Source: Coleofasciculus sp. S288 (GTDB lineage: Bacteria; Cyanobacteriota; Cyanobacteriia; Cyanobacteriales; Coleofasciculaceae). From it: a stretch of DNA of 13,267 nt. Positions 1-10,484 of the stretch are shown here, piece by piece. The notes under the pieces are model-generated. The model saw nothing but the letters and a program-made list of their open reading frames with translations, made no database searches and was not told where the DNA came from. Position 1 is the first letter of the stretch. The number at the start of each line of letters is the position of its first letter. The stretch spans positions 1 through 13,267 of the forward strand of contig JAIUYC010000011.1 of the NCBI GenBank assembly GCA_020216575.1. Direction: 5' to 3'. The position numbers were made by a program, and so were the translations under genes.

Positions 1-168
1 AGCGAGATTGGCTTCCTCCTGAGATAAACGACCTAGATAAACCAGAAGCGTAATTTGACTGCTATCAGGATGAGTGGCGATCGCTGATATTACTCTCTCC
101 AAGTCGGAGTCAAGAGACTGTCCTGAGTCAGACCAATCCGGAAAAATAATTAAATTTATTTCTCCTAA
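1..168 (-). repeat. Direct repeat copy A: shared domain at end of GT-A gene
   Basis: Copy A aligns to positions 1351-1518 with a constant offset of 1350 bp and no indels over about 168 bp. The same 8-bp HIP1 palindrome sits at matching positions (77-84 and 1427-1434). The offset is a multiple of three, and both copies are read in the same frame on the minus strand. It encodes PLKLGEINLIIFPDWS, AIATHPD and TLLV. Copy A continues beyond the left edge. Confidence 0.85.
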
Positions 169-1083
169 CTTTAAAGGTAAAGCAACATACTTTATCATAC
201 TTTTGCCTTGCTGATAATTTTCATTAGTTTTATCTCTCGAATCAAAAGTATTAATTCCCCACAATTTGATATCTCTTATTTTTTCTTTATCTCCTGTAAA
301 GTAATCTTGGATATATTGTTTTGCATATCCTTGTAAGTGGAGAGCATTGAATCTAATTTTTTTTCCTAACTCAAGATGCATGCAAAATGGCTTGTTATCT
401 ATAAATTGAATATTTTTTCTGGCATTCGACATTTCAAAGCCTTCTGAATAATTAATATTATTGTCATAGGTTGAGTTATTAAGGATTAGAGATAAATCAC
501 CAATCCGGTTAGGATCTAAATCGCGAAAAGATCGGAAGGCAACCATATCACATATAGCGCCTATTTTATTTTTAATACGATCCTGGAATTCTAGCTCCAG
601 TGCCTTAAACTTGACAGAATTCGTATAAAGCTCGACTAAAAAACTACAAAATTCTCTCAAATTTTTTAAACTATTAACAAAAACGCAGTGAGGATTCCAT
701 TTTTGATACAAGGCCAAATCAAAATCAGCGAACTTTTTTTGTTCTTCTTCTATATCGGCATATAACATTACATCAGAATCCATGCAAAAGCACTTTTCTA
801 TTCCTTTTGTTTTCATAAACTGTTTTAAGACAAACCATCTTTGGAAGCAAAAAAGTTCATAGCTAAAGGAATTATGACTGCGATGTTTGTATATCTTTTG
901 AAAGGTCAGAGCTTCCTGAAAATAATTACCAATTTCTTCATGCTCAATAAAGTTATAGTGTTTGCTAGTATAGTCTCCAATTAAAATGATATTAGAGTGA
1001 GGGTTAAATTCTCTTGCCTGAGCCAAAATCCATCTTAAATGTTCGCGCTCAGCTAGATGTATGATAATAATAGGAATGGACAT
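1..1083 (-). CDS. GT-A-like glycosyltransferase with unnamed C-terminal domain (3' end cut off)
   Basis: Reading the minus strand from the ATG at 1083 gives 361 codons without a stop up to the left edge, so the C-terminus is missing. The start MSIPIIIIHLAER resembles the first strand of a GT-A nucleotide-sugar fold, and MDSDVML at residues 101-107 is a good DXD metal/nucleotide-binding motif after a hydrophobic strand (KCFC). Together these suggest a glycosyltransferase; sugar and acceptor are unknown. From about residue 303 (PLKLGEINLIIFPDWS) to the edge the protein matches the C-terminal domain of the gene upstream in the same cluster. A modest ribosome site (AAGAG) lies about five bases before the ATG. 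It is the third gene of the minus-strand cluster, 69 bp after the GT4 gene. The GT part is about 30-35% GC, while the shared domain is about 45%, which suggests a fused or imported module. GT assignment is likely, family unassigned. Confidence 0.8.
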   Translation of the reverse strand, partial: MSIPIIIIHLAEREHLRWILAQAREFNPHSNIILIGDYTSKHYNFIEHEEIGNYFQEALTFQKIYKHRSHNSFSYELFCFQRWFVLKQFMKTKGIEKCFCMDSDVMLYADIEEEQKKFADFDLALYQKWNPHCVFVNSLKNLREFCSFLVELYTNSVKFKALELEFQDRIKNKIGAICDMVAFRSFRDLDPNRIGDLSLILNNSTYDNNINYSEGFEMSNARKNIQFIDNKPFCMHLELGKKIRFNALHLQGYAKQYIQDYFTGDKEKIRDIKLWGINTFDSRDKTNENYQQGKSMIKYVALPLKLGEINLIIFPDWSDSGQSLDSDLERVISAIATHPDSSQITLLVYLGRLSQEEANLA

Positions 1084-1152: not shown

Positions 1153-3117
1153 TTAATAGGTGGGAAGAGTTTCAGCTCTAGCTTGTGCGATCGCCTGTTG
1201 ATTTTCGTGTTCTAAAATAATTCGAGCTTGGAGGCGGGGTAACAGCGCCTTCCACTGCATTTCACTGAGGTTCCCCAGCAATGAAATTTCTAATCCCTCA
1301 GCAACATCTACATCCTCTTCCATTAGCAGATTCATCACCACGCCTGATATAGCCAGTTCAGCATCTTCGTCAGAAATTGTGCTGGTGTCTACTAACAAAG
1401 TTAAGCGATCGCGATCGGGGTGAGTTGCGATCGCTCGGATAATACTAGCCAGTTCCTGAGATAGAGTATCTTCAGACAAGCTCCAATCGGGGAAAATAAT
1501 TAGGTTGATATCTCTTAACTTGAGCGGATCGAGGTCAATAGACTCCCCTGATGCAGATTCTATACTCTTCAGCATCTCCTGCGCGGCGGCAAAATCTGGC
1601 ACGGCTTGCACAACGGTACGTAAAGCCTTTTCCGCCAAAGCAAAATCGTTGTTGTTTGTTGCCGCCTGCGCTAAGTACCACGATACCCGCCAGTGGTCTA
1701 AACCAAGATTGAGTGCAGCGAGCCATTCCGAAACAGCTTCAGCATATCGTCCCTGATACTGTCGCACTAATCCTGACCATAACCTTAAGTAACTATCATT
1801 TGGGTAATACTCTCGGTATTGCACGATTCCACCCTCTCCCATTGAGAGCAAGATAGATGAGGTAGCAATTTTTTGCTCGGCTTCAAAGAGTTCTTGAATG
1901 TTTTGGGAGGTCAGGCTGACTGTAAATTCAGGTGCTGTATTTCCTAGGGATTTAGCAAACACTTCTGCCCCAGAATATTCTTCTGGTTGCCCAGTCAAAT
2001 CCTGAAGTGAAACAGGCTGGTACAGTAAACTCGATTCGGTATCAATGCCCCATTCTCGCGTGCGCTTGGGTAATTTTATCAAACGTTCATAAATTGGATT
2101 GATCTGCTTGGCGGCATTTTCAGCGCCAAAAATTTGTTGGGCATAGTCTTTGGCATTACGCCCTAACCTAGCTCGTTCTTCTGGATGATGATACAGATAC
2201 TCGATCGCTTGCTTATATTCCAATTCGCTGCAAACTATTAGCCCTGTAAAATTATCGATAACTAACCGTTTGACTCCACCATAAGGGAATACCACGGGCG
2301 GAACTCCGCCATACATCACTTCCTGTAAATTTAGCTCAGAAGCCGCATACGTATCTTCACACAAGGGGTAACCATAAACATCCAGAATTTCAATAACGGA
2401 TTTTATATCTTCGACAGGGCCGCGAAAGTCAAATCTCTCAGCGACACCGAGTTCTTGGGCTTGCTGTTGTAAATAGTTTTGTATGCCGCCACCACACACA
2501 ATAAATTGCACATTGGGAATAGTAACCTGGCCGCTCATCGGCACATAATTCGGGTACATTTTGGCAAAACTAACATGACCGATGAAGCCAACATTAAACG
2601 TATCGTGAGGTTTGGGCTGTATATCGGCAACTCGCTCAAAGTCTGCTGCCCCATAAACCATCCCCGTTTTTTTCAATCTCACTTCGGCAGGCAAATTTTG
2701 AAAGACTGGATGTTCGTAAGTGTAGGGACTGCAAGCGAGGGCAAAATCCGAGTAGTCAACCAACTCCTTGGTGAGGATTTGCGGGGGTTTATCGCCAGCG
2801 ACGTGGAACCAAATTAGCAGGCGCATTGCTGGGAGTTCTGATTGCAGAAACTCGTACATCTGAGGATTATTCCAAAAATGGAGATGTACGATATCTGCAT
2901 TTTCTAGTTCATGGAGTATAGCCTCTGTGTCGTTTGCGATCGCCACACTCAGTCCTGCTTCTTCTGCCATGGCGATCGCACCCGGATCGACAGCCCCCAG
3001 AGAAACGACACGATGTTGGAAACTGCCTAGTTTGGATGAGTATTTTGCTGTTGCAATCAGGGCACGACCAGAACCACCCCGGTAAAACCCTTGAATGACG
3101 TGAAGGATTTTAATCAT
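1153..3117 (-). CDS. GT4 glycosyltransferase with TPR segment and unnamed C-terminal domain
   Basis: The 654-residue product probably transfers a sugar from an activated donor to a glycan, in the cytoplasm or at the inner membrane face. Residues 1-345 form a GT-B fold of family 4: MIKILHVIQGFYRGGSG opens the N-terminal Rossmann half, VHLHFWN (77-83) and VGFIGHVSFAK (176-186) follow, and ASELNLQEVMYGGVPPVVF (259-277) is the donor-binding E-x-E type region, continuing into DNFTGLIV (288-295). Residues about 440-515 contain TPR-like helices (SGLVRQYQGRYAEAV; AEKALRTVVQAVPDFA). Residues about 530-640 are the domain shared with the next gene downstream, beginning PLKLRDINLIIFPDWS. The ATG lies 15 bp after the stop of the large upstream gene, so the two are almost certainly one transcript. 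GC content is ordinary for the window. Donor and acceptor cannot be told. Confidence 0.9.
   Translation of the reverse strand: MIKILHVIQGFYRGGSGRALIATAKYSSKLGSFQHRVVSLGAVDPGAIAMAEEAGLSVAIANDTEAILHELENADIVHLHFWNNPQMYEFLQSELPAMRLLIWFHVAGDKPPQILTKELVDYSDFALACSPYTYEHPVFQNLPAEVRLKKTGMVYGAADFERVADIQPKPHDTFNVGFIGHVSFAKMYPNYVPMSGQVTIPNVQFIVCGGGIQNYLQQQAQELGVAERFDFRGPVEDIKSVIEILDVYGYPLCEDTYAASELNLQEVMYGGVPPVVFPYGGVKRLVIDNFTGLIVCSELEYKQAIEYLYHHPEERARLGRNAKDYAQQIFGAENAAKQINPIYERLIKLPKRTREWGIDTESSLLYQPVSLQDLTGQPEEYSGAEVFAKSLGNTAPEFTVSLTSQNIQELFEAEQKIATSSILLSMGEGGIVQYREYYPNDSYLRLWSGLVRQYQGRYAEAVSEWLAALNLGLDHWRVSWYLAQAATNNNDFALAEKALRTVVQAVPDFAAAQEMLKSIESASGESIDLDPLKLRDINLIIFPDWSLSEDTLSQELASIIRAIATHPDRDRLTLLVDTSTISDEDAELAISGVVMNLLMEEDVDVAEGLEISLLGNLSEMQWKALLPRLQARIILEHENQQAIAQARAETLPTY
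1351..1518 (-). repeat. Direct repeat copy B: shared domain within GT4 gene
   Basis: This is the internal copy of the repeat described at 1-168. In this gene the domain continues past the repeat to the stop at 1153, through GVVMNLLMEEDVDVAEG, ISLLGNLSEMQW and ALLPRLQARIILEHENQQ. That gives a full domain of roughly 110 residues with alternating strand and helix character. I do not recognise it as a named family. Confidence 0.85.
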
Positions 3118-3132
3118 TATCCGTCTTTCGGC

Positions 3133-6100
3133 TTAGCTTTGAGGTTTGCGATATGCCCTGATTGTAGAAAACACCCCCGGAATAATGGGCAAATATGCCT
3201 GGGTTTGAGTGGGATCGGTTGGATACAACAAGGGAAGATCGAGAACCTCACAGTGATAGGTATTCTCCATCAATTCTTGACACGCTTGCCGGATGCCTGG
3301 TTCGTTACCTGCATGGTGGAATAGTATCGCTTCCCGATTCTCATCATTGAGTGGCGGCAAATAATCGTGAAACATCATGATGCCTCCCGGTGCCAAGAGA
3401 GGAAAATAGTTAATAATGTCTTGGCGCACGCCTTCGTAAGTATGGTCGCCATCCACAAAGATAAATACGGGTAGTCTGCTGTCTTGCTCGAATACCTGCT
3501 GCAATTGAGGCACAGCTTGATGAGAAAACATGCGTAAGTGGGTTACGTCCCCTTGAAGATGGTTGAGAACGTCATAAAATTGCGGATGTCCTCCAGGTTC
3601 GATCGCAAATCCCTGCAACTGAGGGACAATTCTTTTTAAGGCTGTGCAGGTTAAAAATAGGGAACTTCCAGCAAAAGACCCAATCTCGACAAAGCGCAAA
3701 GGAGATGATGTTTCCGGCAGCAATTCCCGCAGGACATAGTACAGTTGGAATCGTTCGTTAGGCGACATTTGACTTTGAATTCCACAAGCTACTGGGTCAT
3801 CCTCAGCAAACTCAGCCACTAACATCAGGTCTAAGTCAGAATTTATTGGAAACTGGTTGGGGCAGGAGAACCATACACCTGTATCGTCGATTGGGTTAAT
3901 GTCAAACTCGATTTGCTGCGATGCCTCAAACTCCTGAACCGCTTGACGGCACTCTTCATAGTTATCAATTTGGATAAAGCCATCATTCACCACGCGGTCA
4001 TAGAGATGATGCAAAATTGTTGATGTTGACTCAGTAGCATGGCGATCAATGTGCAACAGTCCAATCATCCCCACAGTATTCCGCACTTGAGGCAATATCT
4101 CCTGAAAAGAACCTTTGATGGTGAAAACAATCTCGGAAACACCCAGTTTTGAGCAAATATCTGGCAAACTCGCTTCTCTTTCAGTTGGGCTGAGTCTCTC
4201 TTCCAAAGCATAGACCCAACGAGATTGCTGAGTGTAGCGTTTGATCACTGCTGCCATGAATGCGATCGCACCGCTATCGGCAACACCGCAGTCAATACAA
4301 TTACCGGGAATGTTTTCTATACAAACTTGTTTTACCAGTGAAAAAAGTGAATAGAGATGAGCTTCGCTCAACTGAGTATGGGGGCGGACTACTTGGAGTA
4401 ATTCCTGGAACTCAGTATCGGCGTTAATCCGATTTTGCGCTTCGTTGACTAAAATTTGCGGCTTTTGTGAAGCAGTAGTTTGAATTTTTCTCAAGAAACC
4501 GTTGGTTCCCCAGGTGACGTTATAGCCAAAAAAGTCACAATACTCGCCATCAATTTCATACTCCCCTCGATGCTCTGCCAAAAATGCCTTTAATGCCTGA
4601 TGGGGTCCGCTGCGGTGAGCGGAGTCTTGGACAATATCCGAAATAATGCCATCCTCAATAATGATATATTCGCCTTCTTTCAGATAGGGGTGAAAAAAAT
4701 CTAAAACCGCTTTACTGATTTCATAGGTGTGAGCAGCATCTTCAATAATCAGCCAGGGGCGAGGTAATGAATTGAGAAATTCTGCTGAAAATGTCTCGTG
4801 TAACGCCTCTCCATCCCCTTCTAGAAAGGTAACGCGAGGGTGAGATACCTGGGTAACTTTGACGATATCAACCGAATAAACCCGCCCATCAATCCCAAAA
4901 TTGTCCAGCAAGTCGCCAAACCATAAGGCACTCCCCCCACTTTTAGAACCAATTTCAATAATGGTGCGTGGCTTAACGTTCCAAATCAGCAGGGGATATA
5001 AGGCAAAGTCAAAGGGATTCTTAATCATCGGAACGCCCCGGTAAGAGTAGTTATGGGTAGCGTTCTGAATGGACATCATGAAATCATAAGGAATGGTTGT
5101 TCCCCAAGGACGCTGATCGGTTGGAATTTTTGGCGGTTTGGGTTTAATCAGGGCTTTGGTTAAATACTCAACTTGCGATCGCGCCTCCGCATGAGAAGGA
5201 TTATTGGCCAATTCCTGCTTAGCCGCTTCTAGCGCTTCTTCATGCCGTCCGACTGCATTCAGGCAGATGGTGCGGACATAGTGCATTCCTGGTACAAAAA
5301 CACCCAGAGAAGCAGCTTTTTCTGCCAAGCGCAGCGCCTCCACCTTTTTCCCTGTGCGGAGCAACTCCAACGCTTGTTGGAGCATTGCTTGCACGTCTCG
5401 TTCTGAGGTGGTGCATAATTCGGATAACAGGTGCTTGCCCTTTTTGTGATTCGGTACGGCGGCAAGTAAGCGATTCAGCGACTCAACCGCCTCAGAAGTA
5501 TGTCCGAGTCGCGCTTGAGCAATGGCTTTGCCGTAATTGAGTTCTGGCGTGTTGGATGAGGATGCGATCGCCTTTTCCAAAAGGCTCAATGCCTCGATAT
5601 TATTATTGGCGTTGAGGTGTGTGATCGCTTGCTGAATCACCCAATCATTAGTTACCGTCTGAGCTGCCTTTGAACTACCGCTAAACATCATTTTTTCTGT
5701 AAGATTATCAGCTTGGATATCGCGAGTTACCAAAGGCGGATGCCGAAGCGGAAAACTCATCGCTTCTGTAGGCAAATTTGCAAATTGGCTTTCGCCTTTA
5801 GTGTGGGTTGCTTCTGGACCAAAACCAATATTAGAAACTAAATTGATGTTCGGAAGAATGCTCAAGCCGTTATGGTTCCAGCAGGTAAATGTCCAAGCAA
5901 AATCCCACGTATCAAACCCCTCAAAGCCACTTTGAAAAATCCTTGACCAATGCGCAACCGCCTGATGGTCTTGTAGGATGTTCTCAAGTAGATTGCTATC
6001 TCTAAATTTTGGCCACCGTTTCATCTCCAGTTCGTACAGTTGCCATGCTCTTCGCCAACTTGCCCAACCCCATATATGGTTGTAGATGGAGAAGTAGTAG

Positions 6101-7464
6101 CTATATTCTGTACGTTTTTGTCCCAACTGAAAATTATTCCCTGAAATCGCCATTACCCGGTCGTCATGACGATATCGCTCTAGCAATTCCTCACAGAAGC
6201 GAAAGAATGTAGGATGGGGAAGGCAGTCATCTTCAAGAACAATTGCTTCCTCAACTAGCTCGAACACCCAGTTCAACCCGCTAGAAACCCGTTTTCTACA
6301 GCCTAAATTGATATCTGAATAATTCGTCAGAACTTCACAATCCCAGTCAACATGATCGATAATGGCTCGTGCTGCTGCACATTTTTCAGCTTCTCCCGGT
6401 CGGTCTGCACGCGGGCCATCAGCAACTACAAGCAACTTAGGAGGTTTTGCTTGACGGATTGCCTCAAATACTTTCGCTGTAGTATCGGGTCGCTTGAAGA
6501 TCATCAAACAAACGGGAGTTTTTAAGTGCCATTTAGTCGGGTTTTCTAGTAAAGAAGTGCCTTGACTAGTTGAGGATTGGGCTGAAGCTGGACGACTTTC
6601 ATACTTAGACTTTATTTCTTGAGGTGTAGGATTAATAATTTGAAAACATGACTTGCCCAAGCAAGATTGCTTCTCGCTTGGCAGTTCTAAACTCGACAAA
6701 AAATTGTCATTCTTAAAGAAAATAGACGTACAGTTTTTATAAGTATAGGAAGGGATAAGCCCATAAAAATCGATTCGCTTAAACCCTTTTGAACCCAAGA
6801 GGACTATTCCTTCGTTATGCCTTCTATCATCGGTATTATCAAAAACTATTAAACCATCATCCTTTAACCGACTAATTCCATATTCAACACATTTATTCCT
6901 ATTAATTCCATCTATTACAATAACATCAAAGTATTTTTCTGGATATTCAATAATTTTAGCAGCATATTGATGTTCTTCTTCAATTAAATAGAGTTCTACA
7001 TTAAAGGGTTGGCTTTCCCGAATGTAGCTAAACCAATTTGCATCATTTTCAACAGACACAACCTCCAACGCTCTTTCAGCAAACCAGAGAGTGGAGTTCC
7101 CGCTACCAAATTCAAATACTCGGAAATTTTTGCTTATCTTATTTTCAAGAAACTCTATAGCAGGGTAGGTATACCATGGCACAGGCTTGAATTCAGCATT
7201 TACAGGTTTTCCCATCCTTAAAGAATTGATCCATCCAGCTGATTCCAGATAGTTGATTCCTTCAGGTAAATGGGCAGAAACTTCCATCCAATCCACAGAC
7301 AAAATAATACTGTGTGCTAGAGTTATGCCAAGACCCGAAACAGCTAGTTCTGGATGTTCTGCAATAACAGTTCTATAGAGTTCTGCGGCTTCCCTAAATC
7401 TTCCTTGATTCCAAAAAAGTTGTGCTCTTTCTAGTTTGTCTAATTCTCGATTTATTCCAGACAT
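3133..7464 (-). CDS. Giant multi-domain methyltransferase / glycosyltransferase / TPR protein
   Basis: This 1443-residue protein has at least five enzyme folds. A short TPR-like stretch (about 8-40) leads into methyltransferase 1 (about 98-260; FEFGSGNST near 118, VIDG near 184, DGLIVFDN near 204). A GT-A glycosyltransferase follows (about 316-560; PVCLMIFKRPDTT, VLEDDCLPHP near 410 as the metal site), of the type often labelled HlpA-like. A TPR linker spans about 605-770. A CmcI-like methyltransferase lies at about 786-995 (IIEIGSKSGGSALWF, IIEDAAHTYE, YIIIEDG). A TylF-like methyltransferase lies at about 1030-1205 (CIDCGVADSG, LLHID, IQIDNYE). A fourth methyltransferase lies at about 1235-1405 (FVEIGSFAGSS, IFVDGDHTYEGV, PGGIMMFHDY). 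CmcI- and TylF-like domains often O-methylate sugars, so sugar transfer plus methylation is inferred. The ATG at 7464 is preferred over TTG at 7467 because AGGA lies seven bases upstream. It is probably the first gene of the cluster. The first methyltransferase region is AT-rich. Confidence 0.9.
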   Translation of the reverse strand: MSGINRELDKLERAQLFWNQGRFREAAELYRTVIAEHPELAVSGLGITLAHSIILSVDWMEVSAHLPEGINYLESAGWINSLRMGKPVNAEFKPVPWYTYPAIEFLENKISKNFRVFEFGSGNSTLWFAERALEVVSVENDANWFSYIRESQPFNVELYLIEEEHQYAAKIIEYPEKYFDVIVIDGINRNKCVEYGISRLKDDGLIVFDNTDDRRHNEGIVLLGSKGFKRIDFYGLIPSYTYKNCTSIFFKNDNFLSSLELPSEKQSCLGKSCFQIINPTPQEIKSKYESRPASAQSSTSQGTSLLENPTKWHLKTPVCLMIFKRPDTTAKVFEAIRQAKPPKLLVVADGPRADRPGEAEKCAAARAIIDHVDWDCEVLTNYSDINLGCRKRVSSGLNWVFELVEEAIVLEDDCLPHPTFFRFCEELLERYRHDDRVMAISGNNFQLGQKRTEYSYYFSIYNHIWGWASWRRAWQLYELEMKRWPKFRDSNLLENILQDHQAVAHWSRIFQSGFEGFDTWDFAWTFTCWNHNGLSILPNINLVSNIGFGPEATHTKGESQFANLPTEAMSFPLRHPPLVTRDIQADNLTEKMMFSGSSKAAQTVTNDWVIQQAITHLNANNNIEALSLLEKAIASSSNTPELNYGKAIAQARLGHTSEAVESLNRLLAAVPNHKKGKHLLSELCTTSERDVQAMLQQALELLRTGKKVEALRLAEKAASLGVFVPGMHYVRTICLNAVGRHEEALEAAKQELANNPSHAEARSQVEYLTKALIKPKPPKIPTDQRPWGTTIPYDFMMSIQNATHNYSYRGVPMIKNPFDFALYPLLIWNVKPRTIIEIGSKSGGSALWFGDLLDNFGIDGRVYSVDIVKVTQVSHPRVTFLEGDGEALHETFSAEFLNSLPRPWLIIEDAAHTYEISKAVLDFFHPYLKEGEYIIIEDGIISDIVQDSAHRSGPHQALKAFLAEHRGEYEIDGEYCDFFGYNVTWGTNGFLRKIQTTASQKPQILVNEAQNRINADTEFQELLQVVRPHTQLSEAHLYSLFSLVKQVCIENIPGNCIDCGVADSGAIAFMAAVIKRYTQQSRWVYALEERLSPTEREASLPDICSKLGVSEIVFTIKGSFQEILPQVRNTVGMIGLLHIDRHATESTSTILHHLYDRVVNDGFIQIDNYEECRQAVQEFEASQQIEFDINPIDDTGVWFSCPNQFPINSDLDLMLVAEFAEDDPVACGIQSQMSPNERFQLYYVLRELLPETSSPLRFVEIGSFAGSSLFLTCTALKRIVPQLQGFAIEPGGHPQFYDVLNHLQGDVTHLRMFSHQAVPQLQQVFEQDSRLPVFIFVDGDHTYEGVRQDIINYFPLLAPGGIMMFHDYLPPLNDENREAILFHHAGNEPGIRQACQELMENTYHCEVLDLPLLYPTDPTQTQAYLPIIPGVFSTIRAYRKPQS

Positions 7465-7471
7465 CAAGCTA

Positions 7472-9942: not shown

Positions 9943-10428
9943 TCAGGACATGGCTTGAATGATGTAATCAAAGTAGGGAGCTGCTGCACTAGCATCCTCC
10001 TTACTGAGCAGGCTCACAGACGCTTCTTTTAAGCAGCGGATTGATTCAGCCATGCCTGCGACTGGCACGCCGAGGGAGTTGTACATTTCTCGCACCCCGA
10101 TCAGACCGATTTTTTCAATGGGTTCCTTATCACCGGAAAGGACACCATAGGTAATCAATCGCAGATACCAACCGTAGTCGCGTAAGCACAGCGCCCGTTG
10201 ACGCTCTCCGTAGGCATTGCCACCGGGAGAGATAAAGTCAGGGCGCTTCTGCCAAAGCTGCTTGCTGGCTTCCTGGACAATCTTTTTTTCATTTTCTGCT
10301 AGCGTGGAAACAATCCGCATCCGCTGTTCGCCCGTTTTTAAAAACTCATTGATCGCTTTGAGTTCGCCGGAGCTGGGATACCGGAGTTCGTCGTCTGCTT
10401 TAAGAATGACTTGGCTAACTACACTCAT
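9943..10428 (-). CDS. apcD: Allophycocyanin alpha-B subunit (phycobilisome terminal emitter)
   Basis: The 161-residue product is a full-length ApcD. It sits in the phycobilisome core as a low-energy emitter that passes excitation to the photosystems and matters for energy transfer to photosystem I. Visible family features are the start [35 protein letters not shown] (44-59), [18 protein letters not shown] (69-86) with Cys81 as the phycocyanobilin attachment site, [18 protein letters not shown] and the end [11 protein letters not shown]. The frame extends 18 codons upstream to 10482, but the family starts at MSVVSQ, so 10428 is chosen. It stands alone, divergent from rlmD with 75 bp between, away from any apcABC operon, which is usual for apcD. 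Confidence 0.97.
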
Positions 10429-10454
10429 CTTAATCGGGTTAACTCTAGGTAACA

Positions 10455-10484
10455 TTTGTAGTTTAACGACTCCGGGTAACACAA
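10455..10484 (-). promoter_or_regulatory. Possible apcD promoter
   Basis: On the minus strand TTGTGT (10479-10484) and TACAAA (10455-10460) are spaced by 18 bases, and a start near 10448 would leave about 20 bases of leader. Both hexamers are imperfect. It lies in the short gap shared with divergent rlmD. Confidence 0.25.

Follow-up and report, generated by a model that had tools for sequence, protein, structure and literature searches.

Genes and domains of the locus

The window analysed here is a stretch of 13,267 nucleotides from Coleofasciculus sp. S288 that makes up one entire contig (JAIUYC010000011.1, here C686), and its most conspicuous feature is a large multidomain gene on the reverse strand (3133..7464). 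The original prediction had described this gene as one uninterrupted frame with four methyltransferase folds, a glycosyltransferase and intervening TPR stretches. Indeed, a single open frame of 1443 codons plus stop was found, starting with an ATG at 7464, ahead of which lies a further in-frame TTG at 7467. The genome (G000), a fragmented assembly of 1069 contigs that is 67% complete, contains one match to the gene, namely the gene itself.

Read from the N-terminus, with all positions on the reverse strand, the protein comprises a TPR (residues 11-50, 7315..7434; best stretch of Pfam TPR_16), a class I methyltransferase domain that we refer to as MT1 (residues ~70-290, 6595..7257), a glycosyltransferase of the GT-A fold that resembles family GT13 (residues ~311-595, 5680..6534), a central TPR block (residues ~610-775, 5140..5637; Pfam TPR families), a CmcI or rhamnosyl O-methyltransferase-type domain (residues 803-994, 4483..5058), a degenerate TylF-type domain (residues ~1018-1205, 3850..4413) and a C-terminal Methyltransf_24 domain (MT24; residues 1216-1440, 3145..3819). 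TPR stretches are present at the N-terminus and in the central block, but none is recognised by Pfam between the CmcI-type, the TylF-type and the last domain. In profile searches, the last three domains exceeded their cut-offs, whereas MT1 and the glycosyltransferase stayed below them. Since relatives match single domains at 60-76% identity and a Planktothrix frame that carries five of these enzyme domains is 63% identical to the window protein, the domain content is beyond what chance would produce.

MT1, searched alone, scored 21.7 bits against PF13578 (Methyltransf_24), which is under the curated cut-off of 26.3, and its assignment also draws on its relatives (L004, L063, L099, L100, L115 and L123); it occurs as a stand-alone gene of 259 residues in G014 and G005. 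For the glycosyltransferase, residues 305-600 gave no match above cut-off in Pfam, NCBIfam or PHROGs, and the score against PF03071 (GNT-I) was 10.3 bits (E 0.29, cut-off 25.4). A single-sequence search of the PDB returned kinase rows only, at E 0.89 and up, which we dismiss as chance. A profile built from 21 sequences fared no better, its best hit, mitochondrial ribosomal mS35 (E 0.03), and the weaker ones likewise being read as chance. The fold was settled by fold search: the domain is modelled with high confidence as a GT-A fold, with GnT-I and POMGnT1 (GT13; PDB 1foa and 5ggi) as clear best matches, from which the window domain differs in being bacterial and only 12-18% identical. A Glu-Asp-Asp triplet at residues 411-413 is invariant in 21 of 21 aligned sequences. 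By its structure model, the domain is a GT-A fold of GT13 type, a family whose defining reaction is the beta-1,2 transfer of GlcNAc onto mannose.

The CmcI-type domain reached 93.6 bits against PF04989 on its own and 109 bits within the whole protein (cut-off 23.2), and it matches PDB 2br3 at the sequence level (E 1.5e-17). In this alignment, Asp909, Glu937 and Asp938 correspond to the metal-site residues Asp160, Glu186 and Asp187 of CmcI, so that Asp160, which is named in the title of the PDB entry, is conserved. The known enzymes of this type differ in being stand-alone. The C-terminal domain scored 61.7 bits against PF13578, and its motifs are intact. Its sole sequence match in the PDB is MeT1 of Mycobacterium hassiacum (6g7d, E 0.00042), a stand-alone and distant sugar O-methyltransferase; in the structural search, its listed match lies on the TylF-type domain instead of the C-terminal one.

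Loss of active-site motifs in the TylF-type domain

The TylF-type domain reached 88.9 bits against PF05711 (cut-off 23), with a best stretch that covers only positions 175-262 of the 264 of the profile, and structural matches indicate that its fold is retained. Its solved relatives MycF and SpnH methylate sugars, as judged from their PDB entry titles. Unlike MycF, SpnH and NovP, the window domain is devoid of the motifs to which we ascribe binding of S-adenosylmethionine (SAM) and metal: the glycine-rich SAM motif ECGVAGGGST is changed to DCGVADSGAI, the acidic metal-site motifs DGDWYEST and DDYGHWEG are changed to DRHATEST and DNY---EE, and a stretch of 21 residues ahead of the SLPDIC helix is also altered or absent. 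These losses came about through substitutions and in-frame deletions, which leave the domain with 198 residues compared to 225 in 16 intact proteins (27 fewer).

The degeneration is confined to this domain. Among columns that are otherwise invariant, the TylF-type domain departs at 32 of 94 (9 sequences), the glycosyltransferase at 6 of 118 (6 sequences) and MT24 at 0 of 113 (8 sequences); counts for the CmcI-type domain and MT1, with three sequences each, carry little meaning. The ratio of TylF to MT24 distances is 1.60 for the window protein and 0.84-1.21 in the 16 intact proteins. In the comparison with G008, a genome of the same family which encodes the protein most closely related to the C-terminal part and whose TylF-type domain is intact, nonsynonymous (dN) and synonymous (dS) divergence were 0.27 and 1.56 for TylF and 0.11 and 3.1 for MT24, which is only a hint, as for most pairs dS had reached saturation or could not be computed.

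Degenerate TylF-type domains were also found in two of 19 other aligned proteins (G523 and G564), where different letters are affected and where the frames are kept open over 1010 and 983 residues. In the MT24 tree, the window protein is placed beside the intact G008 (support 89/89) and G564 beside G523 (94/98), a pairing that implies two separate losses. A single clade of degenerate proteins is not rejected by the approximately unbiased test (p-AU 0.112), and the three are weakly grouped in the TylF tree (58/80), possibly through long-branch attraction. Judging from these alignments and trees, the TylF-type domain is likely to have lost its active site more than once.

We consider it very probable that the domain in the window protein is catalytically dead. 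The four predicted methyltransferase folds are thus all present, but they probably do not amount to four methyltransferases: the protein combines three methyltransferases with preserved motifs and one probable pseudo-methyltransferase. The dead domain most readily suggests a neighbour of MT24 with a structural or acceptor-holding role, comparable to other pseudoenzymes (PMC5106787, PMC10211241).

Related proteins and the GT4 partner gene

The C-terminal pair of TylF-type and MT24 domains is common to 19 distinct proteins, which carry at their N-termini a GT-A glycosyltransferase (11 proteins), a polysaccharide pyruvyl transferase (four; L002 and L005 by Pfam, two more by phmmer), a module of a capsule-synthesis family (two) or no assigned module (two), so that pyruvyl transferase or capsule-synthesis modules are found on 6 of the 19. 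Only 15 bases downstream of the window gene lies a partner gene (1153..3117, reverse strand) for a GT4-type glycosyltransferase with TPR and an unnamed C-terminal module, assigned by PF00534 (58.3 bits) and synteny. This partner is directly downstream in all 18 of the proteins for which downstream DNA is available; the contig of G008 ends there. The 19 proteins were mostly collected with the partner gene as bait. When MT24 was used as bait in three families, 13 of 89 genomes yielded 15 proteins, all of them accompanied by the partner; these were 15 of the 19, and no additional protein came up. The class sample also gave many weaker matches to TylF within different architectures, which lie outside this set.

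The partner gene itself was detected in 35 of 388 genomes sampled from the order and in two of 388 sampled from the class, both belonging to this order. From 41 matches, 37 neighbourhoods were read, of which 21 have a TylF-bearing gene upstream of the partner (in G390 and G435 with one extra frame in between) and 16 have none, some of them starting near a contig end. Pfam identifies a GT41 (O-GlcNAc-transferase-like) domain in the partners of L003, L005 and L070 and an FkbM domain in that of L069, and neither in the window partner. In L070 (9899-12837, reverse strand), genes for NeuB, a GNAT acetyltransferase and a GT28-C protein, the last being PseG-like in our own reading, lie upstream of the gene pair, which at this single locus hints at a nonulosonic acid on a surface glycan or glycoprotein.

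With respect to the domain junctions, Planktothrix sp. PCC 11201 (L004, the same place as L110) has a frame of 418 residues with MT1, followed by one of 1387 residues with an extra methyltransferase, glycosyltransferase, TPR, CmcI, TylF and MT24, and in G041 (L063) MT1 and the glycosyltransferase are two frames with a stop in between. MT1, glycosyltransferase, TPR, TylF and MT24 share one frame in G546 (L115, 1240 residues, 6.4 Mb contig) and G708 (L123, 1233 residues, 7.3 Mb contig), and glycosyltransferase, TPR, CmcI, TylF and MT24 are fused in G576, G598 and G620 (L124, 1276 residues). G390 (L058, 4.15 Mb contig) encodes GT2, glycosyltransferase, TPR, CmcI, TylF and another methyltransferase within 1720 residues. 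Every domain junction of the window protein therefore recurs in other cyanobacteria, but among the proteins found it is the only one that holds both MT1 and CmcI. Two further copies deviate: in G539 (L122 4484-8840, reverse strand) a short MT1 frame and a main frame that stops after TylF make this copy look broken or rearranged, and in G435 (L128 2545-8746, reverse strand) the modules are split into neighbouring genes, namely GT-TylF-MT11, TPR-CmcI and the GT4 partner.

The third gene of the run (1..1083, reverse strand; 361 residues) is truncated by the contig end and has no match in Pfam or NCBIfam. Its C-terminal end is the same unnamed module of about 120 residues as in the partner (1156-1527 and 1-168 in the window, reverse strand, including the letters IIFPDW), for which Pfam has no match in the window proteins. 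This module also occurs in L004, L058, L059-L069, L072, L073, L075, L115 and L123, at the end of or between many glycosyltransferase and methyltransferase proteins. The GT4 domain of the window partner comes first in three giant frames of 3498, 3161 and 2584 residues (L132 1032-11525, reverse strand; L133 8535-18017 and L139 8769-16520, forward strand), followed by GT2, GT4 or GT41; methyltransferase stretches were identified by Pfam in L132 (four) and L139 (one), the scan having covered these two. Frames of 1788-1820 residues in L059, L060 and L062 with GT4, Methyltransf_24, TylF, a C-terminal GT41 and the unnamed module represent, by their predicted domains, a second multi-enzyme architecture in other cyanobacteria. 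Elsewhere in the window (9943-10482, reverse strand), a phycobilisome protein is encoded that is nearest to allophycocyanin alpha (227.3 bits, model cut-off 270) and is perhaps a divergent subunit. Its presence, along with the relative in G008 from the same family, identifies the source of the window as a cyanobacterium.

Proposed function and comparison with known systems

The addition of a sugar and methylation of the product, as originally predicted, is still what the domain content most likely points to, with the reservation that, of the four methyltransferase domains, the TylF-type one is very probably inactive. We somewhat favour the view that the gene product is a multi-enzyme protein involved in assembling surface glycans or the glycans of glycoproteins, and, going by domain families, it rather probably makes a methylated glycan. 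The other transfer modules on the shared C-terminal pair (pyruvyl transferase, capsule-synthesis) and the downstream GT4 gene fit the building of a glycan. In this scheme, the GT13-like domain would transfer one sugar from a nucleotide sugar onto the growing glycan, and hydroxyls of the sugars would be O-methylated with SAM by MT1, the CmcI-type domain and MT24. The TPR solenoid would join the parts, or serve to dock either the acceptor or the GT4 partner. The degenerate TylF-type domain would no longer methylate and might be retained beside MT24 for structural reasons or to hold the acceptor, and the GT4 enzyme of the next gene would attach another sugar to the same glycan. Several points weigh against this assignment of function: it is derived from domain families, the methyltransferase assignment of MT1 appears weaker given its score under the Pfam cut-off, the PDB searches link the glycosyltransferase to a CAZy family by no sequence-level match, the GT4 partner is not tied to proteins of the window type alone (16 of 37 neighbourhoods), and the third gene and what follows run past the contig end.

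We regard it as extremely improbable that separate genes were joined in the contig of a metagenome-assembled genome. The number of contigs, the separate MT1 and glycosyltransferase frames in G041 and Planktothrix and the unique co-occurrence of MT1 and CmcI would be in line with such an artefact, but the fusions on the contigs above 6 Mb (G546 and G708) and in G576, G598 and G620 speak against it, the partner gene stands at its expected place and, since each junction recurs, no assembly join is required. All four methyltransferase domains might alternatively be active and methylate up to four positions, the TylF-type domain with a rearranged active site; this is unlikely in view of the four motif regions that are changed or missing and of a faster change than in MT24. 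Just as unlikely is a gene in decay, in which the TylF loss would be the first step towards a pseudogene of a protein no longer needed. The quick divergence of this domain and the fragmented assembly would suit such a course, but the deletions are in-frame in a frame that is open throughout, MT24 and the glycosyltransferase have hardly changed at invariant columns, and the frames of G523 and G564 are open as well. We also give little weight to a natural-product tailoring enzyme that would glycosylate and methylate a small molecule instead of a surface glycan: neither the window proteins nor 19 neighbour proteins scanned with Pfam matched a polyketide or peptide synthase family, and pyruvyl transferase, capsule-synthesis and GT41 modules are present in relatives.

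The original prediction knew of no described system of this kind; to say that none exists would be too strong, since the fusion of glycosyltransferase and methyltransferase in one glycan enzyme is already known. PBCV-1 A064R, considered here together with A061L, consists of two rhamnosyltransferase domains and a 2-O-methyltransferase (PMC9614988); like the window protein, it joins glycosyltransferase and SAM methyltransferase in one polypeptide, adds sugars and O-methylates one of them. It is set apart by its viral origin, a length of 638 residues, two glycosyltransferases, one methyltransferase and no TPR. Klebsiella O7 ORF6 likewise unites methyltransferase and glycosyltransferase modules in one polysaccharide-building protein and comprises a methyltransferase-kinase chain terminator, a coiled-coil spacer and two glycosyltransferases, with orthologues of its N-terminal part reported in cyanobacteria (PMC11231755). 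The window protein has TPRs, a GT13-like glycosyltransferase and three further methyltransferase folds instead. Chain terminators of the WbdD and O7 ORF6 type have a kinase domain next to the methyltransferase and a coiled-coil spacer; Pfam matches in the window include no kinase family, but the kinase domain of O7 was itself unannotated. No paper on these cyanobacterial proteins or their architecture was found in the open-licence literature. Novelty seems to lie in how many methyltransferase folds are combined, in the exchangeable chassis that comes with a GT4 partner, and in an active site that has been lost while the rest of the chain is intact.

More tentatively, the related proteins could be assembly-line-like glycan synthetases spread across the order. 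They would have a constant TPR-TylF-Methyltransf_24 chassis, swappable N-terminal transfer modules (GT13-like glycosyltransferase, alone or alongside extra methyltransferases; pyruvyl transferase; capsule-synthesis type) and one GT4 partner gene downstream; the TylF-type domain would have gone dead more than once and be kept to hold the acceptor for, or to pair with, the live methyltransferase beside it. Cyanobacterial surface glycans are hard to link to genes, and a conserved pair with swappable transfer modules would allow the structure of the glycan to be guessed from sequence. The gene pairs, one of which is found in Planktothrix sp. PCC 11201, are concrete enough for deletion, and a dead methyltransferase in an intact chain, together with its relative in G008 with the active form, provides a natural comparison for the role of a pseudoenzyme.

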